Shown here: piece by piece, positions 7,130-49,928 of the stretch
Layout of the letters: the number at the start of each line of letters is the position of its first letter
How positions within the stretch are numbered: position 1 is the stretch's first letter
Assembly (NCBI GenBank): GCA_013298775.1
Contig: JAAFIV010000002.1
Location: 62,001 to 126,000 of the forward strand
Direction: 5' to 3'
DNA from: Ignavibacteria bacterium
GTDB taxonomy: Bacteria; Bacteroidota; Ignavibacteria; Kapaibacteriales; UBA4661
DNA length: 64,000 nt
Notes under the pieces: generated by a model
The model's input: only the letters and a program-made list of their open reading frames with translations
Told to the model about the DNA's origin: nothing
The model's database searches: none
Translations under genes and position numbers: made by a program

Positions 7130-7813
7130 TTAGTTCATTGAGCGAATATTTTCTGTGACAACTTGACCATCGAACAAATGAATCGTGCGCCCTGCGTACT
7201 CGGCAAATTCTGGCGTGTGCGTAACCATAATCACCGTCGAACCTGCTTTATTCAGCTCGGTGAGCAGCGTCATTACTTCTGAGCCATTTTTGGAATCCAA
7301 GTTCCCCGTTGGCTCATCGGCGAAGATAACAAGCGGCTTCCCGACTATTGCCCGCGCTACTGCGACACGCTGCTGCTGACCGCCGGAGAGCTGCTGCGGG
7401 AAGTGATTGCGGCGGTGCATCATTTGCATCTGCTCCAAGACTTCTTCCACGCGCTTTTTGCGATAATCTGCATCGAAACCCAAGTACAGAAGCGGCAATT
7501 CGACGTTTTCAAAGACGGTCAGTTCATCAATCAAATTGAAACTCTGAAACACGAAGCCGATAGATTTCTTGCGGAGTTCAGCGCGTTGGCGTTCATTGTA
7601 GCCTGCAATTTCGTGTTCGTAAAAATGGTATTCGCCATCGTCGGGATTGTCGAGCATTCCCAAAATGTTCAGAAGCGTGGATTTACCGCAGCCTGAGGGT
7701 CCCATGATGGCAACAAATTCGCCATTGTGGATTTCAAACGATACGCCGTTGAGCGCAGTAGTTTCTACCTCTTCGGTGCGGTAGAACTTTTTGATATTAT
7801 TGAGTTTAATCAT
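7130..7813 (-). CDS. MacB/LolD-type ABC transporter ATPase
   Basis: A 227-residue stand-alone nucleotide-binding subunit of the MacB/LolD/FtsE class. It has Walker A (GPSGCGKST), Q-loop (VFQSFNLI), signature LSGGQQQR, Walker B (LVIFADEPTGNLDS) and the switch His in VTHTPE. Such ATPases drive FtsX-like permeases that move lipoproteins, peptides or small molecules out of the envelope. The likely partner is the permease at 8711-11188, upstream in the same direction but separated by a VapBC-like pair on the opposite strand. No sigma-54 site was found upstream; instead there is a palindromic repeat at 7886-8030. Confidence 0.92.
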   Translation of the reverse strand: MIKLNNIKKFYRTEEVETTALNGVSFEIHNGEFVAIMGPSGCGKSTLLNILGMLDNPDDGEYHFYEHEIAGYNERQRAELRKKSIGFVFQSFNLIDELTVFENVELPLLYLGFDADYRKKRVEEVLEQMQMMHRRNHFPQQLSGGQQQRVAVARAIVGKPLVIFADEPTGNLDSKNGSEVMTLLTELNKAGSTVIMVTHTPEFAEYAGRTIHLFDGQVVTENIRSMN

Positions 7814-7885
7814 GGCTTCAATCCTTGAAATGTGAAGAATTTGAAAAATATTTGATACTGTTGATTCACGTAAAAAATGGTATTT

Positions 7886-8030
7886 TACTCACCTTACTCA
7901 ACACCAGCACCGCCCTCACCCCTCGCTGCGCGAGACCCTCTCCCAGAGGGCGAGGGTTGATGGAGACTAGCTCTGAAGCCCTCTCCCTCTGGGAGAGGGT
8001 TGGGTGAGGGTGGTTTGCGTAAGGTGAGTA
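7886..8030. repeat. 145-bp palindromic repeat with 12-bp terminal inverted repeats
   Basis: Outer arms TACTCACCTTAC (7886-7897) and GTAAGGTGAGTA (8019-8030) are exact inverted repeats. Inside are C-rich and G-rich halves (CCCTCACCC, CCCTCTCCC, then GGGAGAGGGTTGGGTGAGGG) that fold back. The core recurs at 52475-52571. No protein is encoded, so this is a non-autonomous MITE- or REP-like element. Confidence 0.8.
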
Positions 8031-8079
8031 TTTTAGAAAAAAGCGTACTTTGTTACTTCTCAACAATTTGAACTATTCT

Positions 8080-8316
8080 ATGGATGCTATTACGATTGAA
8101 CTCATTCAAAAGGTTCAGCAACTTCCGCTTGAGAAACAGAAAGCGGTCTTACAAATTGTCAATTCAGATTTTTCCCGCACTGAAGATACTCCTCAGCACT
8201 CACGCGAAGAATGGCGGAAACAGTTACTTGAATGTTCTGTTTGGTCCGATGAACAAATTCACAATATAACGGAAACACGACGCTGGATGAACCAATGGCA
8301 AACAGAATCCTTGTAG
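8080..8316 (+). CDS. probable antitoxin of a VapBC-like pair
   Basis: A 78-residue acidic/polar protein starting MDAITIELIQKVQQLP, overlapping the PIN-domain gene by 22 bp. The N-terminal pattern (I-x-L-I-Q-K-V-Q-Q-L-P-x-x-K-Q) is common in small antitoxins of the DUF2281/VapB-like group. The C-terminal half is rich in Trp, Glu and Gln and would be the toxin-binding part. No clear ribbon-helix-helix or AbrB motif is visible, so the antitoxin call rests mainly on gene order and overlap. The ATG at 8080 is preferred over a TTG at 8050. Confidence 0.7.
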   Translation: MDAITIELIQKVQQLPLEKQKAVLQIVNSDFSRTEDTPQHSREEWRKQLLECSVWSDEQIHNITETRRWMNQWQTESL

Positions 8317-8699
8317 ATACATCTGTGTTTATTGACTATTTCCGATGTTATGATAAATCCGGAACATTGTACTATCTCTTGAGTGGACAGTATGAATTAT
8401 GTGCCTCCGTCATCACTGCTTTTGAACTTGGAGCTGGTGTTCGCAATGAACGTCATCAAGCAGATTATGAAGGCGCATTATCATCAGTAGTAATACTTCC
8501 GCTTGATGTATCGTGCATCAAAGAAGCACTAATCATTCAAAATGCACTTCGGAGCATCAATAAAACTATTGGTTTTCCCGACACGCTCATCGCCGCAACT
8601 GCGCTTGCCCACGAGATTCCCATTGCCACATTCAACAGAAAACATTTCGAGCGAGTACCAAATCTGACTCTCTTAAATATTCCCGCCGAACAGCCCTAG
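8295..8699 (+). CDS. PIN-domain ribonuclease toxin, VapC-like
   Basis: A 134-residue PIN domain. The acidic site is visible as Asp8 (ILVDTSVFIDYF), Glu44 (TAFELGAG) and Asp96 (GFPDTLIAATA). The fourth position is the usual Asn in ATFNRKHFERV. VapC toxins are Mg2+-dependent RNases held inactive by the antitoxin encoded upstream, here overlapping by 22 bp. The pair lies antisense between an ABC permease and an ABC ATPase that look like parts of one transport set, which suggests insertion of the pair. The stop is 11 bp from the convergent permease stop. Confidence 0.9.
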   Translation: MANRILVDTSVFIDYFRCYDKSGTLYYLLSGQYELCASVITAFELGAGVRNERHQADYEGALSSVVILPLDVSCIKEALIIQNALRSINKTIGFPDTLIAATALAHEIPIATFNRKHFERVPNLTLLNIPAEQP

Positions 8700-8710
8700 C
8701 AACCTCACCA

Positions 8711-11188
8711 TTACTCATGCCTGAGCGATTCCACCGCATTTGCCCGCGCCGCTTTCCATGCCTGCCCTGCAACGGTCATAAATGCTACGACCGCAGCCAC
8801 AATGCCCGCACCGACTAACACCGCAACACCAAAACCAGAGCGGAGTTCGACGTGGTAGGCGAAATCTTGCAGCCACGTGTTCATCAGCCAAAATGCAAGC
8901 GGCGTACCAATCACAAAAGCGATAGCAACTAATTTGAGAAAATCTTTGCTCAGAAGCCCGACAATACTTGCTTCCGACGCACCCAACACCTTGCGAACAC
9001 CAATTTCTTTCGTGCGCGATTCCGCCGCAAACGCTGCCAAACCGAACAGTCCCAAGCACGCAATCACGATAGCTATTGTGCTAAAAATTGCGAATAAATT
9101 TCCGCTGCGACTATCATCTTCGTATTGCTTTTGAAAAATCTCGTCTGCAAACCGCACAATGAAGGGGTTTCCGGGCAGAATGCGCTTGTAGAGCTGCTCC
9201 AGCGTTGCCATGTTTGCTTGCACGTTGTTGGTTGTCATGCGAAGGGTGAAGCAACTCGTTGCATCGCTTGGACAAAAAATAATTGGCTCAATCGCGCCGT
9301 GGAGCGACTTGTGATGGTAATTCTTCACCACACCACAAATTTGAATGCGCTGACCTTTTGCATCATCGCCCCATTTGATGAATTGTCCAATCGCCTCCGA
9401 TGCTGTTCTGAAGCCAAGTTGCTGCATTGCCGCCTCATTCACAACGACATTGCGCAATTTGAAATCGCCCATATTATCGGTGTTTTGATAGCCTTTGCCG
9501 CTCACAAATTTCATTTCGTATGTTGCGAAGTAGTTTTCATCAGCAATCAGCATATTGTAGCGTTTTTTCTCGTCGCCTTTTTGCCCCGCAGTGCTGGTAA
9601 TTCCTTCAGTGGAGAAGTTATAGCCTTCGCCAGGAATATTCTGGCTGCCAGCGACTTTTTGAACAAATGGCAACCGCGCCAATTCTTGCTTGAAGACCAG
9701 TGCTGGTCGCATATCTTTTTTGCCTTCGGGTGTTTTTTCTACGATTTGCGGTCCGTCAATCACGAGAAGCTGTTCCAAATTCATTCCCAAATCGCGGTTG
9801 CGCATAAAATTTAACTGTTGCCAGACAATTAATGTTCCCGCAATAAACGCAATAGACACTGCAAACTGCACCACGACAAGCGTTGAGCGAATCCGACCGC
9901 CACGCGCCGAGCGTGAAAAATTGCCGCGCAGAACAATAATCGGGTCCACGCCCGTCAAAACAAGCGCGACGTAACTGCCCGACAGCACTGCACCCAGCAC
10001 CAATGCGACGATTCCCCACGAACCAATGCCAAACGAAACTGCATAACCAAGATGTAATTTCGCACCAAGCAAGGTATTAAGCGGCTTTTGGAGAAGTTCA
10101 ACTGCAGTGAGCGCAATAAGAAACGCGGCGAGTGTCAGCACAGCGCATTCCAGCAAATACGGCAAAACAAGGTGCTGACGCGATGCGCCGATTGCCTTAC
10201 GAACCCCGATTTCACGCGCTCTGGACAGCCCAAATGCCGTCGAAAGATTGATGTAATTTATCCACGCCAAAGCAAGCACAAAAAACGCGATAGAACTAGC
10301 AATAACCACGAGTTTCAGTGCTGCGTTATTTGGAAGCGGGTCGTTGAAGCTGTCGCCTGTGTGAATGGAGCGAATTGGTTGCAAGTGCCAGGTAACATCT
10401 AAATTGCCCATTTTTTGACTGATTGCTCGCATTTGCGCTTCCATTTCTGCGGCTTTCCCGCCTTCTTTCAGCAAAATATACGCCGTCAAAAAGCCAGATG
10501 TATTCTGCGGGTCTAAACTCGCCCAACTGTTATTGTTCAAGTTTGTAGGATTGGCGAGGGTTGTGAGCGAAAAGAGCATATTTCCTTTCAGGTGCGAATT
10601 TTCAGGAATATCCTGCATCACGCCTGTAACGGTGAACTCATTGGGAGTAAATTGATTCGCTACGAGCAAACGTTTTCCAATCGCGCTTTGGTAATTTCCG
10701 TTGCAAGCGAAGTATTTCTGCGCTGCCGAGGCAGTTATCACCATCGTATTGGGCTTATCAAGGTCGGGGCTGCCGGCGAGGAAGGAGAATGAAAATGCGC
10801 GGAAAATATCGTTGTTGCCGTATGCCACATCTCCTTCTTGGAAAGTGAGTGTTTGTGCGCCTGCGCTGGCATTTTGTGGTCTATAACTCACTACGCCACC
10901 CGCGCTTGTCATAAACGTCGGAATGGCTTCAATGCTGGAGAAACGGTCGCGCAGAGCAAGCATAGCGGGCGAAACATTGCCAATGGCTCCCATACGCGAT
11001 GTTCCTACAAGGCGAAAAATACGGTTTGCGTTTGTGTGAAAAGCATCAAAACCCGCATGAAAGCTGGCAAATTCCATCAAAAATAAAAATGCCGTCATGC
11101 CGAGCGCGAGACCAAGCACGTTTAAGCCGGTGGTAAACTTACGCCGCCAAAGGGCGCGGAAAGCGAGTTTGAGGTAATTTGCAAACAT
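8711..11188 (-). CDS. MacB/FtsX-type ABC permease
   Basis: An 825-residue permease with two FtsX cores. An N-terminal anchor helix (LGLALGMTAFLFLMEF) is followed by a MacB-PCD-like periplasmic domain (about 45-270), three helices ending with REIGVRKAIGAS, a second periplasmic domain (about 440-680), and a final three-helix FtsX block with RTKEIGVRKVLGAS and the family ending ANAVESLRHE. It has no ATPase domain and must pair with a separate subunit such as 7130-7813. It is one of four permease loci of this type here. Upstream are a sigma-54-like promoter (11271-11286) and a tandem operator (11340-11376), so it is probably inducible. Confidence 0.93.
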   Translation of the reverse strand: MFANYLKLAFRALWRRKFTTGLNVLGLALGMTAFLFLMEFASFHAGFDAFHTNANRIFRLVGTSRMGAIGNVSPAMLALRDRFSSIEAIPTFMTSAGGVVSYRPQNASAGAQTLTFQEGDVAYGNNDIFRAFSFSFLAGSPDLDKPNTMVITASAAQKYFACNGNYQSAIGKRLLVANQFTPNEFTVTGVMQDIPENSHLKGNMLFSLTTLANPTNLNNNSWASLDPQNTSGFLTAYILLKEGGKAAEMEAQMRAISQKMGNLDVTWHLQPIRSIHTGDSFNDPLPNNAALKLVVIASSIAFFVLALAWINYINLSTAFGLSRAREIGVRKAIGASRQHLVLPYLLECAVLTLAAFLIALTAVELLQKPLNTLLGAKLHLGYAVSFGIGSWGIVALVLGAVLSGSYVALVLTGVDPIIVLRGNFSRSARGGRIRSTLVVVQFAVSIAFIAGTLIVWQQLNFMRNRDLGMNLEQLLVIDGPQIVEKTPEGKKDMRPALVFKQELARLPFVQKVAGSQNIPGEGYNFSTEGITSTAGQKGDEKKRYNMLIADENYFATYEMKFVSGKGYQNTDNMGDFKLRNVVVNEAAMQQLGFRTASEAIGQFIKWGDDAKGQRIQICGVVKNYHHKSLHGAIEPIIFCPSDATSCFTLRMTTNNVQANMATLEQLYKRILPGNPFIVRFADEIFQKQYEDDSRSGNLFAIFSTIAIVIACLGLFGLAAFAAESRTKEIGVRKVLGASEASIVGLLSKDFLKLVAIAFVIGTPLAFWLMNTWLQDFAYHVELRSGFGVAVLVGAGIVAAVVAFMTVAGQAWKAARANAVESLRHE

Positions 11189-11270
11189 ATTCGTTCCTTA
11201 ATTGCGAGTAAAAATACTCCGTGAGTTTCTGAAAATGAGTACGATAATTTCAACCGATACGAGAGTTTTC

Positions 11271-11286
11271 TCAAATGCTGTGCCAA
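11271..11286 (-). promoter_or_regulatory. sigma-54-like promoter of permease 8711-11188
   Basis: Read on the minus strand the site is TTGGCACAGCATTTGA: the -24 GG lies within TGGCAC, and a -12 TTGA follows at the proper spacing (GG-N10-GA instead of GG-N10-GC). The distal palindrome of the tandem operator sits 75 bp further upstream, where an NtrC-class activator would bind. Confidence 0.65.
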
Positions 11287-11339
11287 AACTTCAAAGCGTG
11301 TATTTGTGAGGCATTCAAGGTTTTCTATTCATCCTTCAT

Positions 11340-11376
11340 TGTTCACCAGCGCACACAAACTGTTCAAAAGCGGACA
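11340..11376. promoter_or_regulatory. tandem palindromic operator (UAS)
   Basis: Two 16-bp imperfect palindromes, TGTTCACCAGCGCACA (11340-11355) and TGTTCAAAAGCGGACA (11361-11376), are separated by CAAAC. Centres are 21 bp apart, two helical turns. The second unit is identical to the one at 13601-13616. Confidence 0.75.
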
Positions 11377-11446
11377 CTTTGAAGGACGGTGAAAAAGTTG
11401 TAATATTGCAATGATTCAGCCAGTAATTTCATTCCCTAGAAACCGC

Positions 11447-12118
11447 ATGAATACTCGTCTTACCAAACAAGTGCTTGCACTGCCAAACGCGCTCTTATTC
11501 ATTTCCGAGATACAAAAATCCTTGGAAGAAGAACGTGCGAAGCGGCTTCACTTCTACGAAATCGTTGATGAAAATAAAAAAATGGAATTCATCAATGGTG
11601 AAATTGTGTTCCATTCGCCCGCAACAATGCAGCAGAATCAAGTTACAGGGAGACTTGCAGCTCTTTCAAGTACCTTCGCATCATTAACACATCAGGGTTT
11701 TGTGGGTATAGAAACAATCATGGTTTCTCTTTCTCGAAATGACTACACACCTGACATCTGCTTCTTTCCCGAAGAAATTGCTCGAAATTTTACTGATGAG
11801 CAAACACACTTTCCCGCTCCCAGATGGATTGTCGAAGTTCTTTCACAATCAACCGTGCAAAATGATAGAGGCATAAAATTCAAGGATTATGCGGCTCATG
11901 GGGTGCAAGAGTATTGGATTATCGACACTAACGCCGAAACGATTGAGCAATATACATTGCTGGAAGGCGCGTATAATCTTGTTTTGAAGGCAAAAGAGGG
12001 AATAATTTCAAGTACAACTTTACATGGCTTCACAATTCCTATTCGTGCTGTTTTTCATCGCCAAGAGAAGGCAGCAACACTTCAGGCAATGATTGAGCAA
12101 ACCAAAAAAACTACATAA
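11447..12118 (+). CDS. Uma2-family PD-(D/E)XK protein
   Basis: A 223-residue member of the Uma2/DUF820 family, whose fold is a PD-(D/E)XK nuclease core. Visible elements are FINGEIVFHSP, the acidic YTPDICFF, IVEVLSQST, and the KFKDYAAHGVQEYWIID segment. Function in cells is unknown for the family. The ATG at 11447 gives an N-terminus (MNT...) matching its paralog at 50467-51171; an ATG at 11411 would add 12 residues. It lies on the opposite strand between two pieces of the MacAB-like set. A hairpin terminator separates it from the convergent adaptor gene. Confidence 0.88.
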   Translation: MNTRLTKQVLALPNALLFISEIQKSLEEERAKRLHFYEIVDENKKMEFINGEIVFHSPATMQQNQVTGRLAALSSTFASLTHQGFVGIETIMVSLSRNDYTPDICFFPEEIARNFTDEQTHFPAPRWIVEVLSQSTVQNDRGIKFKDYAAHGVQEYWIIDTNAETIEQYTLLEGAYNLVLKAKEGIISSTTLHGFTIPIRAVFHRQEKAATLQAMIEQTKKTT

Positions 12119-12124
12119 AACGAC

Positions 12125-12150
12125 GAAAGCCCGCATAAATACAGGCTTTC
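12125..12150. terminator. bidirectional hairpin terminator
   Basis: GAAAGCC(C)G pairs with C(A)GGCTTTC around an AT loop between the convergent stops of the Uma2 gene and the adaptor gene. The stem is short but well placed. Confidence 0.6.
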
Positions 12151-12173
12151 TAAGAGATTCGCTTCTTTGAAAT

Positions 12174-13424
12174 TTACTTCACCACGAGCTTTTCCGCATC
12201 GCCAAAGGTATCATAGCTTGAAGTGATAACCTTCTCGCCGACCTGCAAACCTTCGATAATCTCAAACGTATTCGGATTTTGCCGTCCAAGCCGTACATTG
12301 CGCTTGATTGCTTGCTTTCCGTCTTGCGCAAGCACAAACACCCACTGTCCGCCTGTTTTTTGGTAAAATCCTCCGCGAGCCAGTAAATTCGCCTGTTCCT
12401 CGCTGCCAAGCTCCAAGCGGATTTGCAACGATTGTCCGCGCCGAATACCTTCTGCCGCCGCGCCTTCAAAGTACATATCCACTTCAAAGCGACCATTTTT
12501 TACTTCCGAAAACACCTTACGAATAATCAATCTATGCGGCTTTCCAGCGATTTCACATTGTCCAATTTGCCCAACATTGATTCGCGCTAAATAGAATTCA
12601 TCTATCGGAACGCGGATTTTGTAGGCATCAATCACATCAATCTGCCCCAAACGCTGACCGCTCGTTTTTGCTTCGCCAATTTCGCAGTTGAGCGAGGTTA
12701 GTTGCCCCGAAATAGGAGCGCGAACCAGCATATTATCAAGGTTTTGCTTCACAACGCCAAAGTTCGATTTCAAGCGGTCGGTGGAATTTTCAAGTTGATT
12801 CACCTGCGCCAACCGCATGATGGAATCCGTGCGCGAGGTTTCGAGCGTGAGAGCTTTGCGCTTGACCAAAAAATCGTAATTGTCCCGCGCCCGCTCAAAC
12901 TCTTCCTTCGAGACGAGTTGCTTTTGCACGAGAAGTTGATTCTGCTCAAAGACGCGCTTTGCGTTGGCAATCTGATTTTCGAGGTCGAGAAGCTGATTTT
13001 TCAAGGTGAGGCGGGTTTGCTCCATCGCCACGCGGCTGTTTTGCAAGTTGTTCATTTGGTCGAGCATTTGCGCCTCACGATTGACGGCATCCAGCACCAT
13101 TGTTGAGTTCTTGAGCAAAACAATCGGGTCGCCTTCCTTCACCATCGCGCCCGCTTCGACGAACATTTTTTCTACGCGCCCACCATCAACGGCATCAAGG
13201 AAAATCGTGCGTTGCGGCTGCACCGTGCCTGTAACGGGGATAAATTCTTGGAACACGCCGCGCTCCACCGCCGAAACCGTGATTTTATCACGCTCGACGT
13301 TTAGCGTGCTGCGCGTATCACCCAAAACGACGGTGTAAATCACGAAGCCGGCAAAGACGGCACTTGCCGCAAGAATCGTGATTTTACGCGCCGTCCAGCG
13401 TTTTTTTTCAATTTTCTTATCCAT
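12174..13424 (-). CDS. MacA/HlyD-type periplasmic adaptor
   Basis: A 416-residue membrane-fusion protein. A basic N-terminus and one transmembrane helix (ILAASAVFAGFVIYTVV, about 15-33) are followed by a beta-barrel/lipoyl half (GTVQPQRTIFLDAVDGGRVEKMFVEAGAMV), a long coiled-coil hairpin (about 95-205), the second lipoyl half (VRAPISGQLTSLN) and a C-terminal barrel. It should bridge an inner-membrane MacB-type permease to an outer-membrane channel. The ATG at 13424 is chosen because a longer frame to 13514 would run through the sigma-54-like promoter. No TolC-like outer-membrane gene is in the window. Confidence 0.92.
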   Translation of the reverse strand: MDKKIEKKRWTARKITILAASAVFAGFVIYTVVLGDTRSTLNVERDKITVSAVERGVFQEFIPVTGTVQPQRTIFLDAVDGGRVEKMFVEAGAMVKEGDPIVLLKNSTMVLDAVNREAQMLDQMNNLQNSRVAMEQTRLTLKNQLLDLENQIANAKRVFEQNQLLVQKQLVSKEEFERARDNYDFLVKRKALTLETSRTDSIMRLAQVNQLENSTDRLKSNFGVVKQNLDNMLVRAPISGQLTSLNCEIGEAKTSGQRLGQIDVIDAYKIRVPIDEFYLARINVGQIGQCEIAGKPHRLIIRKVFSEVKNGRFEVDMYFEGAAAEGIRRGQSLQIRLELGSEEQANLLARGGFYQKTGGQWVFVLAQDGKQAIKRNVRLGRQNPNTFEIIEGLQVGEKVITSSYDTFGDAEKLVVK

Positions 13425-13510
13425 GATATTTTGCGTTTGAAGAGTGAGAATGTTGAGTTGCGTGAAATGATAGTCAGCAATGATGGTCGTGCAATGATTT
13501 CTTGATTTGT

Positions 13511-13526
13511 TCAATTAGCGTGCCAA
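13511..13526 (-). promoter_or_regulatory. sigma-54-like promoter of the adaptor gene
   Basis: The minus-strand sequence TTGGCACGCTAATTGA carries a consensus -24 element (TGGCACG) and a -12 TTGA. Predicted transcription would start near 13500, about 75 bp before the ATG at 13424. The operator unit at 13601 lies 75 bp upstream, exactly as at the permease promoter. Confidence 0.72.
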
Positions 13527-32936: not shown

Positions 32937-33596
32937 TTACTTTACCCAACCATCCAGCATAGTAATGGTGCGGCTTCCATACTCTGCATTGCGCTCCGAG
33001 TGCGTTACCTGCACGATTGTCGTGCCTTCGCTATTCAATTTTGTGAAAAGCTGCATGATTTCTTCGCCTTGTTGTGAGTTCAAATTACCAGTTGGTTCAT
33101 CAGCAAAAATAATTTTTGGTTGTGCAATAACGGCACGAGCAATGCCAACAAGTTGTTGCTGCCCGCCTGAGAGCTGATGCGGAAACAAATCTTTTTTCGC
33201 AACGATATTGAATTTATCCAAAATATCGGCAACCATGCTTTTACGCTCATCTTTCTTGACGCTTTGGTACAAAAGCGGCGTTTCGATGTTTTCATACACC
33301 GTGAGTTCGTCAATGAGATGGTAGCTTTGGAACACAAATCCGATATGCTCTTTGTGCAATTCTGTTCGTTGTTTTTCGCTCAGTTTCATCACGTTTTTGT
33401 CCGTGAAGGTGTATTCCCCATCGCTTGCTTCGTCGAGCATTCCCAAAATATGCAGAAGCGTGGATTTTCCCGAGCCAGATGGTCCCATGATGGACACAAA
33501 CTCGCCTTGTTTGATATCTAACGTGATATTGCGCAGCACAAAGGTTTTGAGCGAACCAGATTGGTAATACTTGTTGATGTTTTTAAGCTGAATCAT
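32937..33596 (-). CDS. MacB/LolD-type ABC ATPase, stand-alone
   Basis: A 219-residue ATPase with Walker A (GPSGSGKST), Q-loop (VFQSYHLI), Walker B (IIFADEPTGNLNS) and switch His (VTHSER). The signature reads LSGGQQQLV, with Leu where its paralog at 7130 has Arg. No permease gene is adjacent, but its control region has the same operator and -24 element as the permease operon at 42624-45383, which lacks an ATPase. I infer they work together. The ATG at 33596 is chosen because a longer frame to 33686 would include the promoter. It stops 124 bp from the giant kinase stop (convergent). Confidence 0.9.
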   Translation of the reverse strand: MIQLKNINKYYQSGSLKTFVLRNITLDIKQGEFVSIMGPSGSGKSTLLHILGMLDEASDGEYTFTDKNVMKLSEKQRTELHKEHIGFVFQSYHLIDELTVYENIETPLLYQSVKKDERKSMVADILDKFNIVAKKDLFPHQLSGGQQQLVGIARAVIAQPKIIFADEPTGNLNSQQGEEIMQLFTKLNSEGTTIVQVTHSERNAEYGSRTITMLDGWVK

Positions 33597-33658
33597 ACAA
33601 ATTTTTGAAAAAAATTGAGAGAAAAAGTATTTGTTTTGTTCAATCTTTGAAGGACGTA

Positions 33659-33674
33659 AGAAAATTCGTGCCAA
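33659..33674 (-). promoter_or_regulatory. sigma-54-like promoter of the lone ATPase gene
   Basis: Minus-strand TTGGCACGAATTTTCT has a consensus -24 element (TTGGCACG), but the -12 position reads TTCT instead of TTGM, so it is the weakest of the four main sites. The operator unit at 33748 is 74 bp upstream. Predicted start of transcription is near 33647. Confidence 0.55.
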
Positions 33675-33725
33675 TCTTTCAAGCACGTGTTTATCAGCTT
33701 TACAGAGGAGCAGCTCAATAATGAA

Positions 33726-36727: not shown

Positions 36728-38008
36728 ATGAAAAAGCTAATTTTTAGTGTTATGGTAATGGTATGCTCATTAGGTAACACTTTCTCACAAGAAGTTCCTA
36801 AAGTAACAGACAAAGAAAAAACAGAAGTAATAAATAATCTTTGCAAATTGGTCGAAAACGAATACGTTTCTGCTGAAACAGGTATTTTAATAAGCAAAAA
36901 GATTAACGAAAACTTAAAAGCTGGTAAATACAACTCCATAAAAAATATAATTCAGATGTGTGATGTACTCACTCAAGATTTACGAGCTATTTCAAAAGAT
37001 GAACACTTTGGTATAGCTCATTCTCCTCAGTATGTGCGTAGCATACAGACAACACTTTCAAAGACAGACAGCCTTGAAATGGAGAAAACACAAATAAAAG
37101 AAGGTCAAAAAAACAATTTTGGCTTTAAAGAACTATCCATTTTAGAAGGTAATATTGGCTATCTAAATTTTACAGCATTTTACGATCTTCGTCATGCAAA
37201 AGAAACCATTACTGCTGCAATGAATTTCTTATCTTACACAGAGGCTATCATCATAGATTTAAGAAATAACACTGGTGGAAGTCTTGATATGCCTCCTTAT
37301 TTAGCAAGTTATTTTTTAAGTGACGATAAAAAAGTTTTATTACAATTTATAGACCGTAACAATAAAGTAAATAGTAAAACCGAAACTACTCAACAATTAG
37401 ACGGAAAAAGATTATTTGGGAAGCCACTTTATATTTTAACCAGCAATAAAACAATTTCGGCAGCAGAAGCATTTATTTATTCACTGAAAAATAGAAAAGC
37501 AGCTATAATAATAGGTGAGACCACAAAAGGAGCCGCTAATCCTAGTGAAGCCAAAGTATTAAACGAGAACTTTCTTGTATTACTACCAAACTATCGTCCG
37601 ATTGATCCACTAACGGGTACAAATTGGGAAGGTACAGGCATACAGCCAGATGTAAAAATTACGGCAGACAAAGCAAAAGAAACAGCACATATTTATGCAA
37701 TTGAAAACATTGCTCGTCAATCACAATGGGGCATAATTGGCAACGCAACGCCCAGCAATTGGGACTCTGACCAACCAATGACCTACAACGAGGCAAGCAA
37801 GACGTGGAAAATCACCCTTAATCTCAAAGCTGGTGAATTTAAATTCCGTGCCAATAGTTCTTGGAATATCAATCTCGGTGACAGCGATGGTGATGGCGTT
37901 TTGAAACTCAACGGAAACAATCTTAAAGTTAATGCTAACGGAAATTATACGGTCTCACTTATACTGAACGTCGCTGGTAATTACACTTATAAACTTATCA
38001 AAAATTAA
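36728..38008 (+). CDS. S41-family protease with C-terminal SusE/F-like domain
   Basis: A 426-residue exported protein. Signal peptide MKKLIFSVMVMVCSLGNTFS; an N-terminal helical domain (about 25-110); an S41 (IRBP/tail-protease-like) catalytic domain (about 115-330) with nucleophile Ser244 in TISAAEAF, GETTKGAANP, and the substrate motif TNWEGTGIQPDV. Residues ~335-426 are a small beta domain (WGIIGNATPSNWDSD, WNINLGDSDGDG) like the starch-binding SusE/SusF modules. Base composition is AT-rich up to about 37720 and then closer to the local average, suggesting a chimera. No PDZ domain is seen. It is probably a transferred gene. Confidence 0.85.
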   Translation: MKKLIFSVMVMVCSLGNTFSQEVPKVTDKEKTEVINNLCKLVENEYVSAETGILISKKINENLKAGKYNSIKNIIQMCDVLTQDLRAISKDEHFGIAHSPQYVRSIQTTLSKTDSLEMEKTQIKEGQKNNFGFKELSILEGNIGYLNFTAFYDLRHAKETITAAMNFLSYTEAIIIDLRNNTGGSLDMPPYLASYFLSDDKKVLLQFIDRNNKVNSKTETTQQLDGKRLFGKPLYILTSNKTISAAEAFIYSLKNRKAAIIIGETTKGAANPSEAKVLNENFLVLLPNYRPIDPLTGTNWEGTGIQPDVKITADKAKETAHIYAIENIARQSQWGIIGNATPSNWDSDQPMTYNEASKTWKITLNLKAGEFKFRANSSWNINLGDSDGDGVLKLNGNNLKVNANGNYTVSLILNVAGNYTYKLIKN

Positions 38009-40090: not shown

Positions 40091-42590
40091 TTACTCCGTC
40101 CTCAGAGACTCCACAGGATTTGCCCGCGCTGCCCGCCACGACTGCCCTGCAACGGTCATGAATGCTATCACCACAGCCGCCACACCCGCCAGCGCAAACA
40201 TCCACCACGAAAGCTCTATCCGATACGCATAGTCCTGAAGCCACTGCCCTGCAGCCCAGTACCCAAGCGGTATTGCGAGAATAATTGCCAGCACCACCAA
40301 TTTAATAAAATCTTTCGTCAGAAGCCCGATAATACTCGCCACCGACGCGCCCAGCACTTTGCGAATGCCGATTTCCTTCGTGCGACGCTCCACCGTGAAC
40401 GCCGTCAAACCAAGCAAGCCTAGGGACGAAACCAGAAGCGCGATTCCGCAAAAGATATTCACGAGTGTCGTCATGCGCGTTTCGTTTTTGTACATGGCTT
40501 GAAGGTCATCATCCAAAAATGAAAATTCAAAAGGTTCATTTGGCACAACGCCTTTCCATGAGGTTTCTAAGGCTATAAGAGTTGATTGTACATTTCCTTT
40601 TTCCAAACGCACCGCAAGATGAGAATATGGAGAATATTGCTCCACGAAGCCAGAATCATTTTTCCAAAAGGGAGTGTTCAAAACAATAGGTTCTATGCGG
40701 TCTTTGAGCGAGGAGAAGTGGAAATTCTTCACAACACCAATAATTTCGGATGTTTCATTCGTATCTCGCGGAGCGGCGTTTCTACGTTGCAATTCCGCTT
40801 CATTGACAATAATTTTATCAATATTTTCCAATGGATTATGCGAAAACCATCTACCAGAAACAAGTGTTAGTCCCATTGTTCGAGCATAATCAGCATCAAC
40901 ACGTTGCATATACTGCATCCTGCTGGTTTTTCCTTTTTCGGGAATGACCATAAATCCATCAACATCACCAGCCAATTTATTCCCGCATCCACTCACCGCA
41001 AGAACACCCGGAGCTTGTTGTAGTGAGCTTTTCAGGGTATTGATATTTTTCCCAAGTTCTCTATTCCGAATCTCCAGCATCACGATATTTTCTTTATCGA
41101 AACCAAGATTTTTCGCCTGAATGAACTTCATCTGCTGCGTCATAATCAGCACACCAATAATCAACATCACGGTTACAGAAAACTGCGTAACAACCAGTAT
41201 TTTTCGGAGCGTACCAGACTGCTTGCCCTGCACCGTGAACGCCCGTAAAATGGTCGCTGGAGCAAAGCCCGAAAGAAAATAGGCAGGATACACGCCGCAA
41301 AGAAGAATCATCACAATCCAAAGAGCAAAAACTCCTCCAAAAAGCTGTAATGGTGAGCTTTGCAGAACATAGGACATGGATAAATGCACTCCAAGAAACT
41401 TGTAAAAAAGCGGCAAAGAAAGCTCAACCATACACAACGCAAGCAATAATGCGGCTGTCGAGATGAGTGCCGTTTCGAGAAGCATTTGCCAAACAATCAC
41501 ACTACGCCCTGCACCTAAGGTCTTGCGCACCCCGATTTCATGCGCTCTCATGGCGGCTCGCGCTGTTTGAAAATTGATGTAATTGATACAGCCCACAAAC
41601 AAGACCACCAGCGCGATTGCGGCAAGAATACTGATTTGTGCCGCTATCTCCGTGAGTATCGTGAACGTTATTGTGCCGCAAAACGCCCTCTATTCCTGAT
41701 GTATTGAGGTGAATATCACTGAGCGCTTGCAAGAGAAAGGCTTCGTGCTGAAGTTTTTTCCATTCGGCAAAGTTGCCGTTTACTTTCTCTTTGTTTTGAA
41801 GAAAAATTTTCTCCATGTACTGCTCTACAGCCCGCTTCATTGCTACAACGTTCACCCCTTCACGAAAACGAATAAACGTCTCAGCGTACCATGCAGTAAA
41901 AAGCTCTTCTTTCGTCATTGTTGCTCGTTTGGCGCGAAGAAGCTGCTCCTGTTTAGCAAAGGGAATGAGAATGCCAAAATGAAACGATGTATTGCTTGGC
42001 AAATCGCGCATCACTGCTGTAATATGTAGATCCATTGCGGCTTGTGGTATTCCAGCAAATTGATTGTTCATGCGTACAGAAAGTATTTCGCCTACTACAT
42101 TTGTTCGACCAAAATACTTCTTTGCAAGAGATTCCGTCAGCACGATGGAGTTTGGCAAAGCCAGTGCTGACGCGGCATCGCCGTAAAGAACGGGAAAAGA
42201 AAAGCCCGCAAGAAACGCAGAATCAGCATAGGAAACGAGCCAATCTTCAGCAAAGCTCACATTTCCAGCCCGCACAACTGCAGGCACGGGCGGCGAACAT
42301 CGTTGTACAAGCTCAATCTCGCGCGGAAAATCTCGTTGCAATGCCTCTGCAAAGCTGGCAGAAACAATCGAACTTGTTGTTTTTTCTTGTGTAATTCGCA
42401 TATCGGTCAAGGCACGAAAGGTACGCTCCGCGCCTGTATGGTGCGTGTCGTAGGTGAGTTCATTGCGAACATAAAGCAAGACAACACAAGCCGCCGCCGC
42501 ACACACCGCCAGCCCCACAATGTTGATTACAGCGTACCATTTTTGCCGAAGAAGGCTTCGGAAGGCGGTTTTGAGATAATTTTGAAGCAT
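40091..42590 (-). pseudogene. FtsX-type ABC permease split by a frameshift
   Basis: Two overlapping frames make one permease. 41538-42590 encodes the N-terminal half (anchor helix, MacB-PCD domain) to IEGVLRHN, and 40091-41608 encodes the C-terminal half from VLFVGCINYINF through the final FtsX block ending ANPVESLRTE. Near 41670 the reading shifts by one base: in the downstream frame the expected TM sequence continues as ITFTILTEIAAQISILAAIA. Rejoined length is about 830 residues, normal for the family. It may be a recent mutation or a sequencing error. It is preceded by the intact permease at 42624, 33 bp upstream, likely co-transcribed. Confidence 0.88.
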
Positions 42591-42623: not shown

Positions 42624-45383
42624 TTATTCAGTTCTAAGAGACTCCACAGGATTTGCCCGCGCCGCCCGCCATGACTGCCCTGCAACGGTCATAAATGCTA
42701 TCACCACAGCCGCCACACCCGCCAGCGCGAACATCCACCACGAAAGCTCTATCCGATACGCATAGTCCTGAAGCCACTGCCCAGCAGCCCAGTATCCAAG
42801 AGGTATTGCAAGAATAATTGCCAGCACCACCAATTTCAAAAAATCTTTCGTGAGAAGCCCGATAATACTTGCCACCGACGCACCCAGAACCTTGCGAATG
42901 CCGATTTCTTTCGTACGCTGCTCGGCAGTGAAGGCTGCCAAGCCAATCAGCCCCAAACACGCAATGATGACCGTGAGAATTGTGCAAGCGTTCAGAAGAG
43001 CCGCAAATTCGCGGTCTTTGGTGTATTGTTCTTGAAAAAATTCATCTAAAAAGCGAAACTCGAAGGATGTTCCTGCAAAAACGCGCTCGTATTCTGTTTT
43101 GATTTTTTCTATCGCAGAGCGCACCGATACTGTGCTTGCGGGCTTTTTCTGCAATTTCACTGAAATAAAATCCGAACCAACGTAGTAGGTGAAAATAAGT
43201 GGCTGAATGCGCTCATGAAGCGAGGTTTGGTGGAAATCTCGCACTACGCCGACGATTTTTGCCGTTTTTGTCCAAGGAAATTTTAGCTGTTCCCCAATCG
43301 CCTCTTTTGCAGTGCGAAAGCCGAGAAGTTTCAGTGCAGTTTCGTTCACAACAACGTTCTGCGTCTCTGGTGAATACTCATCTTGACGGAAATTGCGCCC
43401 TGCGATAAATTGCGCTTTGTAGCTTGTCAAATAGTCAAAGTCCACACCCGCAACGTTGAACGAATAGGTATGCGTGGGATCGTTGTCGTATAGCCGCTTA
43501 ATTTGCCCGCCGCCAAAGACATTTGTACTACTGCCGGGAATAGTCGTGGAAGCAGTAACGGCGAGGACTTCGGGAAATTGCTTCACAGAATTTTTGAATG
43601 CTTGCACTTGTTCGGGATAATTCTGATTCGTGTATGCTGGACCCGGCACAATCAGTGTTTGTGCGATGTCCAAGCCTAAATCTTTATCAATCGCAAACTG
43701 CAACTGACGATTCATCACGAACGCCGTGCTGATAAGCGCAATCGAAATCACAAACTGCCCCACCACCAACACTTTGCGGAATGAATACAGCCCAAAACCC
43801 TCACGAATACTGCCTTTCAGGGCAAGCGTCGGATTGGTCGAAGAAAATACCAACGCTGGATACAAGCCCGCAACAACGCTTGTAAGCATCACGCCACCCA
43901 GAGCAATCGCCCAAAAGCCAGCACCCGCGCCGCCGAGCGACAATGTACGATGCGTAAATGAACTTAAAAATGGCAGCAAAATTTCCACCAAGCCCAATGC
44001 CAACACAAGCGCGAGCGCAGTCAGCAAGAGCGGCTCGGTGAGAAATTCCTTCAACAGCGCACCACGACTTGCTCCCATAACTTTGCGAATGCCCATATTT
44101 TTCGCTCGCTCTGAAAACCGCGCCGTTGTGAGATTGATGTAATTGATGTACGCAATCAAAACAAGCAGTAAGGCAACAAGGCTCAAAGCCCAGATAATAT
44201 CAGCGTTGGAGAGCGGTTCGGTTTTTGTGTTTGGCGTAATTTCGAGCGAGCGAAGTGCTTGCAGCGTAAAAACCTCTTTTGCTCCAGCGCGGCGGAGCGC
44301 ATCGCCTGTACCGCGCTCGCACAGCTCACCAATACTTGCCGCAACACCAGCAAGATTCGCATTCGGCTTCAAAAGCAAATATGTTTGGTAGGAATAGCGA
44401 TACCAATTTGAGCGAATTGCTGGGTCAAGAGCTTCAATCGTAGCAAAGGAAACAAGCAGATTGTAGCGTACACGCGAGTTTTGAGGCGGGTCTTGGATTA
44501 CGCCCGTTACTTGCCAAAGCTGGTCGCGCTGATAGTCCAAAAACTTGCCAATCGGATTTTCCTTGCCAAAATATTTTCGTGCAGTGGATTCCGTCAGCAC
44601 AACCGTATTCGGTTTGGAGAGCGCATCATTTCTATTGCCGAGAAGCATTCGGAACGAAAAAATCTGCAAGAACGAAGCATCAGCATAAAAAATATCTTCT
44701 TCCTTAAACTGTGCGGCTTGCAGCGTGATTTTAGGCTTTTGAACGCCGAGCGATATTTCCGAGTTGAGATTTCCCTTGCCATCGCTCACGCGGCTTGCAT
44801 TGTCGGGGTCGGTCATCCATTCACCATCCACAACGAACTTGTATTGATACGTGCCTCTGGCGACATTTTTCATCGTATATGACCATTCACGCGCTTCCCC
44901 GCTTTTGCCATTGCTCACAAGGCTGATGTTGTCTGGCTTCCAGCCATTAAAATTGCCTGCAAGCATTACCTTTTTTGCAGCAGGAAAGCCCTTTAATCGA
45001 AATTCTAATATTCCAACGGAATCCTTTGCAAGCAGCACGGAATCTTGCTTGACAACCTTCGCAATCGTGACAATGCCACCCGTGCGGTACATTCGTGTTG
45101 CGTCCAGCACATCGGGGTTTTCGGCTGCCAGTTGCGCGGCGATGGGCGCGTAGGTTGTTGCTGTTTTGTACTGCGATTCTCCATTCACAAACCGCTCCTC
45201 GTGAACGCGGTAGATGTTGTCGGCGTTGGCGTGAAAATCATCGTGGCGGAAATCGTAGGAGACGTACAGACCAATCAGGAAGGCACTTGTAAGGCTTATC
45301 GTCAAGCCAAAAAGCATGATGAAGGTAATGAGCGGGCGGCGGCGAAGATTGCGCAGCGTGAAGGTGAGTTGGGTGGAGAGCAT
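42624..45383 (-). CDS. FtsX-type ABC permease with inserted CBM48-like domain
   Basis: A 919-residue permease with the usual anchor helix, periplasmic domain, three-helix block (NMGIRKVMGAS), second periplasmic domain and final block (RTKEIGIRKVLGAS). Inside the first periplasmic domain, residues ~121-212 (44745-45020) form a CBM48/AMPK glycogen-binding-like module: VMLAGNFNGWKPDN, GTYQYKFVVDGEWMTDPDN, NSEISLGV. I know of no such module in this transporter family. The ATG at 45383 is used because the frame upstream to 45518 crosses the sigma-54-like promoter. It heads an operon of degraded permeases and lacks an ATPase. Confidence 0.92.
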   Translation of the reverse strand: MLSTQLTFTLRNLRRRPLITFIMLFGLTISLTSAFLIGLYVSYDFRHDDFHANADNIYRVHEERFVNGESQYKTATTYAPIAAQLAAENPDVLDATRMYRTGGIVTIAKVVKQDSVLLAKDSVGILEFRLKGFPAAKKVMLAGNFNGWKPDNISLVSNGKSGEAREWSYTMKNVARGTYQYKFVVDGEWMTDPDNASRVSDGKGNLNSEISLGVQKPKITLQAAQFKEEDIFYADASFLQIFSFRMLLGNRNDALSKPNTVVLTESTARKYFGKENPIGKFLDYQRDQLWQVTGVIQDPPQNSRVRYNLLVSFATIEALDPAIRSNWYRYSYQTYLLLKPNANLAGVAASIGELCERGTGDALRRAGAKEVFTLQALRSLEITPNTKTEPLSNADIIWALSLVALLLVLIAYINYINLTTARFSERAKNMGIRKVMGASRGALLKEFLTEPLLLTALALVLALGLVEILLPFLSSFTHRTLSLGGAGAGFWAIALGGVMLTSVVAGLYPALVFSSTNPTLALKGSIREGFGLYSFRKVLVVGQFVISIALISTAFVMNRQLQFAIDKDLGLDIAQTLIVPGPAYTNQNYPEQVQAFKNSVKQFPEVLAVTASTTIPGSSTNVFGGGQIKRLYDNDPTHTYSFNVAGVDFDYLTSYKAQFIAGRNFRQDEYSPETQNVVVNETALKLLGFRTAKEAIGEQLKFPWTKTAKIVGVVRDFHQTSLHERIQPLIFTYYVGSDFISVKLQKKPASTVSVRSAIEKIKTEYERVFAGTSFEFRFLDEFFQEQYTKDREFAALLNACTILTVIIACLGLIGLAAFTAEQRTKEIGIRKVLGASVASIIGLLTKDFLKLVVLAIILAIPLGYWAAGQWLQDYAYRIELSWWMFALAGVAAVVIAFMTVAGQSWRAARANPVESLRTE

Positions 45384-47534: not shown

Positions 47535-49928
47535 TTATTCCGTTCTCAGTGACTTCACCGGATTCTGCTTCGCAGCCCGCCACGCCTGCCCTGCAACCGT
47601 GATGAATGCTATTGCCACCGCTAATGCTCCTGCTCCCGCGAACACGCCTACGCCCAAGTTCACACGAAAGGCAAAATCCTGAAGCCACTTGCTTGCACCC
47701 CAGTATGCAAGCGGTGTTGCGACGACGAGCGCGATGCCGACTAATTTCAAGAAATCCACACTGAGTAGCCCGATGATATTTGCCGACGACGCACCCAAAA
47801 CCTTGCGAATACCGATTTCCTTCGTGCGCTGCTCCGCCGAGTATGCTGCCAAGCCAAACAAGCCCATGCAAGCAATTATCACGGTTACGGCGGCAAAGTA
47901 GAGAAACACTGTCTGCAAGCGTTCTTCAGCGCGGTATTGCTTGTTGAAATGGTCGTCCAAAAAGTAGTATTCCATCGGGAAGCGCGTGGAAAAACGTTTC
48001 CATTTTTCTTCAACAAATGCAATCGTTGCCGTCATATTTTCGGGGCGAACTTTCAGCATCAAATACTCGGGCGTTTGCTTGACAAGCACCATCACAAGCG
48101 GTTCAATCGGACTGTGGAGTGAGGTAAAATGGAAATCTTTCACCACGCCAATAATCTCACCCGAATAGCCCACACCGTTTTCTACCTTCATTCCAAGCGG
48201 ATTTTTCCAGCCGTAGGTGCGCACTGCCGCTTCGTTCACAATAAAACCGCCCTCTTTATCAGAAGGAAAATCCTTAGAAAAACCGCGCCCTTTGGACACT
48301 TGAATCCCCAACATCGGCATCAAATCTTCATCCACCGACACAATGTTAATGGCGCGTTCTTCCTTCGCACTACCATTTTGGATGACGTGAAAAATTTGTC
48401 CAAACGGCGAACCCGGAACATTGCTCATGCCCGCAACCCGCGTAATTGCGCTGTTTTGGAGAAATTCATTTTTGATAAGTTGCAACTGCTTGGTAACGCT
48501 GCTATCCTGCATCGGCACTTTCAGCACCAGCGTTTGGTCTTTGGCAAAGCCCAAATCCTTGTTCTTCATAAACTGCATTTGCAAATACACAACGCCCGTA
48601 GCGATAATGAGGGCAATCGAAATGCTAAACTGCACCACAACTAAGGTTTTACGCACCGTTGCAGCACCGCCCTTGGGAGCGCGAATACTTTTCATCACGT
48701 CCATCGGTCGAAAGCCTGATAAATACAAGGCTGGATAGCTTCCCGCCGCAACGCCGACAAGGAAAATTATCGCCAAAATCATTCCCACAAAACCGAAGGA
48801 AAGCGAGAATTGGAGCGACTTCCCCGTGAGTGCATTGAAGGTTGGCAAAAATAATTCTGCAGCCACGATAGCCATTAGCACAGCAATAGTTGTTATGACA
48901 AGCGATTCCCCAATAAATTGTCCAATCAAATGCAGACGCTCCGCACCAATCGTTTTACGCACCGCTACATCTTTCGCTCGCTTCAGAGACCGAGCCGTTG
49001 CTAGGTTCATATAGTTGATACTTGCCACAAGCAAGATAAATACGCCTACCAAACTCAAAATTACTAAGTACGATTTATTCGTGCGCTCGGCGAGGTCGAA
49101 CTGCAATGACGTATCGAAATGTATCTCCGACACAGGCTGCAAGCCGTAGGTGAGGTTTCCTTGCACTTGGTAGGTTTTCAAAAATGGTGCAATGTAGTTC
49201 TCGTGAACTTGTTGCAATTTCGCCTCAAACCCCGCACGTTTTCCTGCATCTTTGAAAAGAATGTAGTTAAATTGCGCCATGTAGAACCAATCCGATTCCA
49301 ACTGCGCCACAAGCGGCTTTGGCAGAGAACTCGCCGAAAGCAGCATTTCCCACTCAATATGCGATGTGTAGGGCTTGTAGCGCACCACGCCCGTAATTTT
49401 GTAGGATTGTTTGCTGAATTGCAGCATCTTTCCCACCACGCCTTGCTCCGTGCCAAAATATTTTCGCGCAATGTCGTCGGTAACAACGACGGAATTCGGC
49501 TCTGCAAGCGCAGTTGCGGGATTTCCCTCAATAAAATTGAAATCAAACATTTTGAAAAATGCCGCTTCGGTGAACCACATTTTTTCAAACGTAAACACCT
49601 TGTCGCCGTACCACACAGGCTGCTTATTCATGGGCATAAGGCGCGTGGATTCTTCGATTTCGGGATAATCTTTTTTCAAGGTCGGCGCGACCATCCAGGA
49701 ACTCCGCGCCATTGCTGTTGTTTGACCGGAGAGCGTCATATTCGATGTTACGCGGTAGAGACGGTCGAGTTTGCTGTGCTGCTTGTCGTAGGCAAGCTCA
49801 TTGCTCACAAACAGCCAGACCAGCAAACACGCGGAAATTCCAACTGCCAAACCAATGATAGTAAGCGCGGAATAGCCTTTTTGCCGCATGATGCTGCGAA
49901 GCGCGATTTTAACGTAGTTGCGGAACAT
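47535..49928 (-). CDS. MacB/FtsX-type ABC permease
   Basis: A 797-residue permease of the same family as 8711-11188: MFRNYVKIALRSIMRQKGYS start, first periplasmic domain (about 45-285), LKRAKDVAVRKTIGAE block, second periplasmic domain, and a final block with RTKEIGIRKVLGASSANI ending NPVKSLRTE. No ATPase gene is adjacent, and no tandem TGTYC operator or TGGCA element was found upstream, so its regulation probably differs from the others. The ATG at 49928 matches paralog N-termini; 50033 would add 35 residues overlapping the divergent gene. Confidence 0.92.
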   Translation of the reverse strand: MFRNYVKIALRSIMRQKGYSALTIIGLAVGISACLLVWLFVSNELAYDKQHSKLDRLYRVTSNMTLSGQTTAMARSSWMVAPTLKKDYPEIEESTRLMPMNKQPVWYGDKVFTFEKMWFTEAAFFKMFDFNFIEGNPATALAEPNSVVVTDDIARKYFGTEQGVVGKMLQFSKQSYKITGVVRYKPYTSHIEWEMLLSASSLPKPLVAQLESDWFYMAQFNYILFKDAGKRAGFEAKLQQVHENYIAPFLKTYQVQGNLTYGLQPVSEIHFDTSLQFDLAERTNKSYLVILSLVGVFILLVASINYMNLATARSLKRAKDVAVRKTIGAERLHLIGQFIGESLVITTIAVLMAIVAAELFLPTFNALTGKSLQFSLSFGFVGMILAIIFLVGVAAGSYPALYLSGFRPMDVMKSIRAPKGGAATVRKTLVVVQFSISIALIIATGVVYLQMQFMKNKDLGFAKDQTLVLKVPMQDSSVTKQLQLIKNEFLQNSAITRVAGMSNVPGSPFGQIFHVIQNGSAKEERAINIVSVDEDLMPMLGIQVSKGRGFSKDFPSDKEGGFIVNEAAVRTYGWKNPLGMKVENGVGYSGEIIGVVKDFHFTSLHSPIEPLVMVLVKQTPEYLMLKVRPENMTATIAFVEEKWKRFSTRFPMEYYFLDDHFNKQYRAEERLQTVFLYFAAVTVIIACMGLFGLAAYSAEQRTKEIGIRKVLGASSANIIGLLSVDFLKLVGIALVVATPLAYWGASKWLQDFAFRVNLGVGVFAGAGALAVAIAFITVAGQAWRAAKQNPVKSLRTE

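Follow-up and report, generated by a model that had tools for sequence, protein, structure and literature searches.

The 64,000-nucleotide stretch of an Ignavibacteria bacterium genome analysed here (the window) encodes a duplicated FtsX/MacB-type permease, P0001 (42624..45383, minus strand; 919 aa), whose first periplasmic domain is interrupted by a carbohydrate-binding module (CBM) of the kind found in the beta subunit of AMPK. The module (AMPK1_CBM, PF16561; 44742..45023, minus strand; residues ~121-214) occupies a beta-hairpin turn of that domain. Module and permease are each known, and their fusion is new to the literature we searched and rare in genomes. A preliminary description of this DNA had proposed an AMPK/CBM48-type E-set module inside the first periplasmic domain of an FtsX-type permease, citing the peptides GNFNGWKPDN, YQYKFVVDGEW, DPDNASRVSDG and NSEISLGV. 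We located all four in the minus-strand reading frame at 42624-45383, at residues of about 121-214, and the PF16561 match, predicted fold and alignments presented below bore out the assignment.

The permease itself has two periplasmic domains and eight predicted transmembrane (TM) segments. By hydropathy, the N-terminus ahead of TM1 is basic, and the periplasmic domains follow TM1 and TM5; because the module lies between TM1 and TM2 and the N-terminus is positive-inside, we place it in the periplasm. P0001 scored above the Pfam cut-offs for both MacB_PCD (PF12704, 103.5 bits) and FtsX (PF02687, 95.1 bits), with the MacB_PCD match split around the module. Alignment with the Porphyromonas gingivalis permease domain 3is6 and with paralogues assigned the first half of periplasmic domain 1 (45051..45272, minus strand; residues 38-111) to the first beta-alpha-beta unit of the Porter subdomain and the first strand of the Sabre subdomain. 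The second half, carrying MacB_PCD, spans residues 223-394 (44202..44717, minus strand), and periplasmic domain 2 (42987..43715, minus strand; residues 557-799) is module-free.

Among NCBIfam models, ADOP (TIGR03434) matched residues 332-919 at E=1.2e-83 with a score of 281.7, below its cut-off of 622.3, and DarB (NF038008), the darobactin exporter permease, matched at E=1.5e-35 with a score of 122.4 against a cut-off of 700. Judged by these matches, P0001 is a relative of the ADOP family and not a member of it. It shares with ADOP and DarB the duplicated FtsX/MacB_PCD architecture without a fused ATPase, and differs from them in its CBM insert as well as in scoring below both cut-offs. It also shares a Porter and Sabre periplasmic domain and an FtsX transmembrane core with YbbAP(-TesA), MacB, LolCDE and FtsEX; YbbP follows the same duplicated plan but has 10 TM segments, compared with eight by hydropathy in P0001. 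The earlier characterization as a MacB-like transporter therefore stands only in the sense of an FtsX/MacB-type permease. MacB proper, with its fused N-terminal ATPase and single 4-TM unit, was rejected as an identity, since P0001 contains no ABC domain and has eight hydrophobic segments and two periplasmic domains. Its predicted topology and domain content place it among the duplicated Type VII ABC permeases of the ADOP/DarB/YbbP kind, with eight TM segments and no ATPase of its own.

We then considered the family and fold of the insert. PF16561 matched residues 136-211 (E=2.3e-12; 47.4 bits, gathering cut-off 26.8). The preliminary description had named CBM_48 (PF02922) as an alternative profile, and this gave a weak match below its cut-off (E=0.0027; 18.4 bits against 22.4), leaving PF16561 as the better model. 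Searched alone against the PDB with phmmer, the module retrieved AMPK-beta glycogen-binding domains (GBDs; E=3.2e-06). An AlphaFold model, built from a shallow three-row alignment, was an all-beta sandwich (pLDDT 76.1, pTM 0.67) whose top structural matches were again AMPK-beta GBDs (Foldseek E 6.9e-07), with VIA-align Z scores of 12.7 to 6c9h and 12.4 to 1z0m (81 residues, 1.5 Å). Lower-ranked matches were other CBM48-type domains from starch enzymes and esterases. The predicted fold of the module is thus the E-set beta-sandwich of an AMPK-beta GBD, and the structure prediction that the preliminary description had proposed as a check came out in its favour. Compared with AMPK-beta GBDs (PDB 1z0m, 4yee), the module shares the fold (Z about 12.5, rmsd 1.5-1.7 over 81-83 residues) and 26-30% identity. 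It differs in being an internal insert within the periplasmic domain of a bacterial ABC permease, where carbohydrate binding is putative.

The insert departs from related permeases at one place. In an alignment with 12 homologous permeases and 3is6, which among solved structures matches periplasmic domain 1 best (profile E=5.4e-32), the single point of departure was one inter-strand turn, at which P0001 has about 110 extra residues and the other permeases only a few. The four-residue turn of 3is6 at this point is EDNK (residues 71-74), and the window's own paralogues gave the same departure point. A model of domain 1 built from those paralogues alone was poor in the module region (pLDDT about 45-50), with flanks that matched 3is6 and MacB. 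Both a chance motif and a misread ordinary MacB domain were ruled out by the Pfam and fold matches and by the alignments with paralogues, homologues and 3is6: MacB_PCD is split around the segment, and the relatives have a short turn in its place. The module was also absent from the other three permease loci of the window (8711-11188, 40091-42590 and 47535-49928), in agreement with the initial reading. That reading had located the module in the periplasmic stalk, and here our alignments point elsewhere. Residue 234 of P0001 aligns with residue 394 of Aggregatibacter actinomycetemcomitans MacB, whose Sabre subdomain covers 347-465 (PMC5985334); since this position is within Sabre and the Porter beta-alpha-beta unit precedes the insert, we assign the module to early Sabre and not to the helical stalk. 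The insert is seated at a beta-hairpin tip where the Sabre part of this periplasmic domain begins.

Residues that contact sugar in AMPK are partly retained. In AMPK-beta1, carbohydrate contact depends critically on W100, K126, W133 and N150 (PMC4032982), and mutating W100, K126 or W133 strongly lowers glycogen binding (PMC2642990). By alignment, these four correspond to W148 (codon 44940..44942), K182 (44838..44840), W189 (44817..44819) and N207 (44763..44765) of P0001, all on the minus strand, and they were kept in all module-bearing permeases (3/3) and in most of the related bacterial modules aligned. Two further AMPK contacts, L146 and T148, are replaced in the P0001 module by K203 and N205. 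About half of the module columns were invariant across the three sequences, and because the four residues are part of the family signature, their conservation in three sequences is by itself weak evidence.

The module-bearing permease recurs within the genus. The same insert was found at the same site in two congeners, G006 (66% identity overall) and G007 (51-52%), and its recurrence in these two independent genomes ruled out an assembly artefact. In a fourth congener, G002, the C-terminus of the permease was present at 89% identity on a contig that ends before the module region, and no copy was seen in four of the eight species of the genus. Module identity across the three species pairs was 65.9, 51.1 and 50.0%, similar to that of the flanking domain. 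Likewise, dN was 0.25-0.46 for the module and 0.23-0.44 for the flanking domain among the three species, with synonymous sites near saturation. These rates indicate that purifying selection has constrained the module and the permease equally in the three species. In a tree of 26 permeases with the module columns removed, the three CBM permeases formed one clade with 100/100 support, and we therefore conclude that the module was gained once.

Outside these species the fusion was not encountered. We searched genomes of the family, class and phylum, and of Acidobacteriota, with a profile spanning the domain-module-domain stretch. The full span was present in 3/10 family genomes, only the same three species were recovered among 294 class and 395 phylum genomes, and the profile found no fusion in 297 Acidobacteriota genomes; module-free permeases were abundant in the genomes searched. 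Such a profile could miss a module placed elsewhere in another permease, and we therefore read ten long-frame PF16561 proteins of the phylum (809-1413 aa), a sample from among further such frames; PF16561 itself occurs in 188/395 phylum genomes. None of the ten was a permease: nine were GH13 alpha-amylases, GH57 enzymes or similar alpha-glucan proteins, and one was CBM-only. The literature we searched, with subscription papers covered only in part, contained no report joining an AMPK-type module to an FtsX/MacB permease.

A search for related loci returned only two other bacterial modules, one stand-alone and one on a TIR-WD40-like protein. An Acidobacteriota protein (L034, 4528-6255, plus strand) starts with a TIR-like region, continues into WD40-like repeats and ends in an AMPK-type CBM. 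Congeners (L036-L038) also encode proteins in which a signal-like N-terminus is combined with three AMPK1_CBM modules in tandem. The window's genome lacks such a protein; it encodes several GH13 enzymes, one of which shows a signal-like N-terminus along with an N-terminal module of weak similarity. The tandem proteins and the CBM-bearing GH13/GH57 enzymes of the phylum share with P0001 the module family and a likely extracytoplasmic setting, and differ in that their modules are terminal or in tandem and belong to soluble or secreted proteins instead of a transporter.

P0001 lies among other permeases. A module-free permease (40091..42590, minus strand) begins 33 bp downstream of it; a frameshift near 41.54-41.69 kb breaks this permease into two overlapping frames, reflecting either a pseudogene or an assembly error. 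Over their final 325 bp, the CBM permease (42624-42948) and this neighbour (40091-40415) are 90% identical in DNA, and elsewhere they show no DNA similarity of this order, which suggests that their C-termini underwent gene conversion. Upstream is a module-free ADOP-like permease (47535..49928, minus strand). The CBM permeases of G006 and G007 likewise have module-free permeases around them.

As candidate engine we consider an orphan ABC ATPase of the DarD/LolD/MacB type (32940..33725, minus strand), on grounds of type, strand and proximity. A second, DarD-like ATPase (7133..7813, minus strand) is beside the permease at 8711-11188 and a DarC-like adaptor at 12177-13514; this region (7133-13514, minus strand) resembles a darobactin exporter in its DarD-like ATPase, duplicated permease and DarC-like adaptor, all scoring below equivalog cut-offs. 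Neither ATPase is adjacent to the CBM permease, and a third ABC ATPase of similar size is encoded elsewhere on the same contig. Within the 36-38 kb read around the CBM permease in G006 and G007 there was no ATPase of the DarD/LolD/MacB type, and no alpha-glucan or glycan-synthesis gene was linked to it in the neighbourhoods read in the three genomes.

What might such a module do on a pump? Type VII transporters couple ATP use to movement of the periplasmic head, and partner-binding features of the head set their role (PMC7668044, PMC5985334). MacA docks on the Sabre and Porter of MacB, LolA on a hook in the Sabre of LolC, and EnvC on the X-lobe of FtsX, which replaces Sabre (PMC7668044, PMC5985334); TesA partners the duplicated YbbP (PMC12646458). 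Partner-specific periplasmic inserts are known, and none of the Type VII structures we compared has a carbohydrate-binding module. In AMPK, the same module converts glycogen binding into allosteric inhibition (PMC2642990). The explanation we favour, at roughly even confidence, is that an ATPase-less duplicated Type VII permease gained an AMPK-type module once, in one genus, and uses it for periplasmic alpha-glucan contact in sensing or tethering. The permease would be powered by a shared LolD/MacB-type ATPase, with the stalk opening and closing the periplasmic domains by mechanotransmission as in MacB and YbbAP. The module would project from the pump head and hold an alpha-glucan chain in the periplasm, candidates being maltodextrin, a fragment of starch or glycogen, or an envelope component that bears alpha-glucan. 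Sugar occupancy could then tether the pump to the glycan or signal its presence to the pump, as glycogen does for AMPK.

The preliminary description had suggested glycan export or sensing, or docking to polysaccharide. Such roles are plausible for the module-bearing permease, because all three species keep the four contact residues and PF16561 was mostly on alpha-glucan-acting enzymes in our sample; sensing or tethering seems likelier than export through the pump. Counting against alpha-glucan contact are the two replaced AMPK contacts, the lack of a linked alpha-glucan gene in the neighbourhoods read, and the failure of CBM48 domains of CE1 esterases to bind any glycan tested (PMC8040265). 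A stronger form, in which alpha-glucan binding alters the permease cycle and makes P0001 a glycan-gated ABC mechanotransmission machine, we consider unlikely. If true, a eukaryotic kinase and a bacterial envelope pump would use one protein fold, the former to sense glycogen and the latter to sense glycan.

Loss of sugar binding is somewhat doubtful, yet the most credible of the rivals: the module would be a protein-docking or structural lobe holding an adaptor or envelope protein. Its position at the Sabre edge is one that serves partner docking in MacB and LolC, and the CBM48 domains of CE1 esterases bound no glycan tested and pack on their enzyme (PMC8040265). Docking alone, however, would not need the four critical sugar contacts that persist in three species. 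Alternatively, the module could bind another glycan (xylan-type, capsule, O-antigen, peptidoglycan or a glycoprotein sugar) that is exporter cargo or an anchor. CBM48-type modules do occur on xylanolytic esterases, one xylobiose complex appeared in the fold list, and this pump family exports or extracts diverse molecules; with the alpha-glucan-binding AMPK module as nearest relative in both sequence and structure, and no glycan-synthesis locus seen beside the CBM permease in any of the three neighbourhoods, we regard this as improbable.

Chance accretion of a functionless domain, tolerated in a large and redundant permease family, has been largely refuted by purifying selection, which acts on the module as strongly as on the permease across three species whose synonymous sites are near saturation; retention of the ligand residues in these species also counts against it. 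We give it very little credence, even with at least 13 permeases of this kind among the matches listed in the genome, a frameshifted permease adjoining, and four of eight species in which no copy was seen.

Many MacB/FtsX-type permeases are orphans, grouped in large families for which no cargo is known. Under the preferred reading of alpha-glucan contact, a built-in sugar-binding module names a class of ligand and offers two tryptophans as a handle, and it would show that pumps gain substrate- or partner-recognition modules through domain insertion.

Several other features of this genome were observed. About 2 kb from the pair formed by P0001 and its downstream neighbour, an S41 peptidase (36728-38008, plus strand) carries at its C-terminus a SusF_SusE-like domain (PF16411, E=1.1e-8), another sandwich of the starch-binding type; the peptidase was not seen beside the CBM permease in congeners. 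On contig C12 of the same genome (196-218 kb; L085-L086), seven ATPase-less duplicated permeases form a tandem array of about 22 kb. Type IX secretion tails, which probably point to Bacteroidota in the wide sense, are also encoded in the window.
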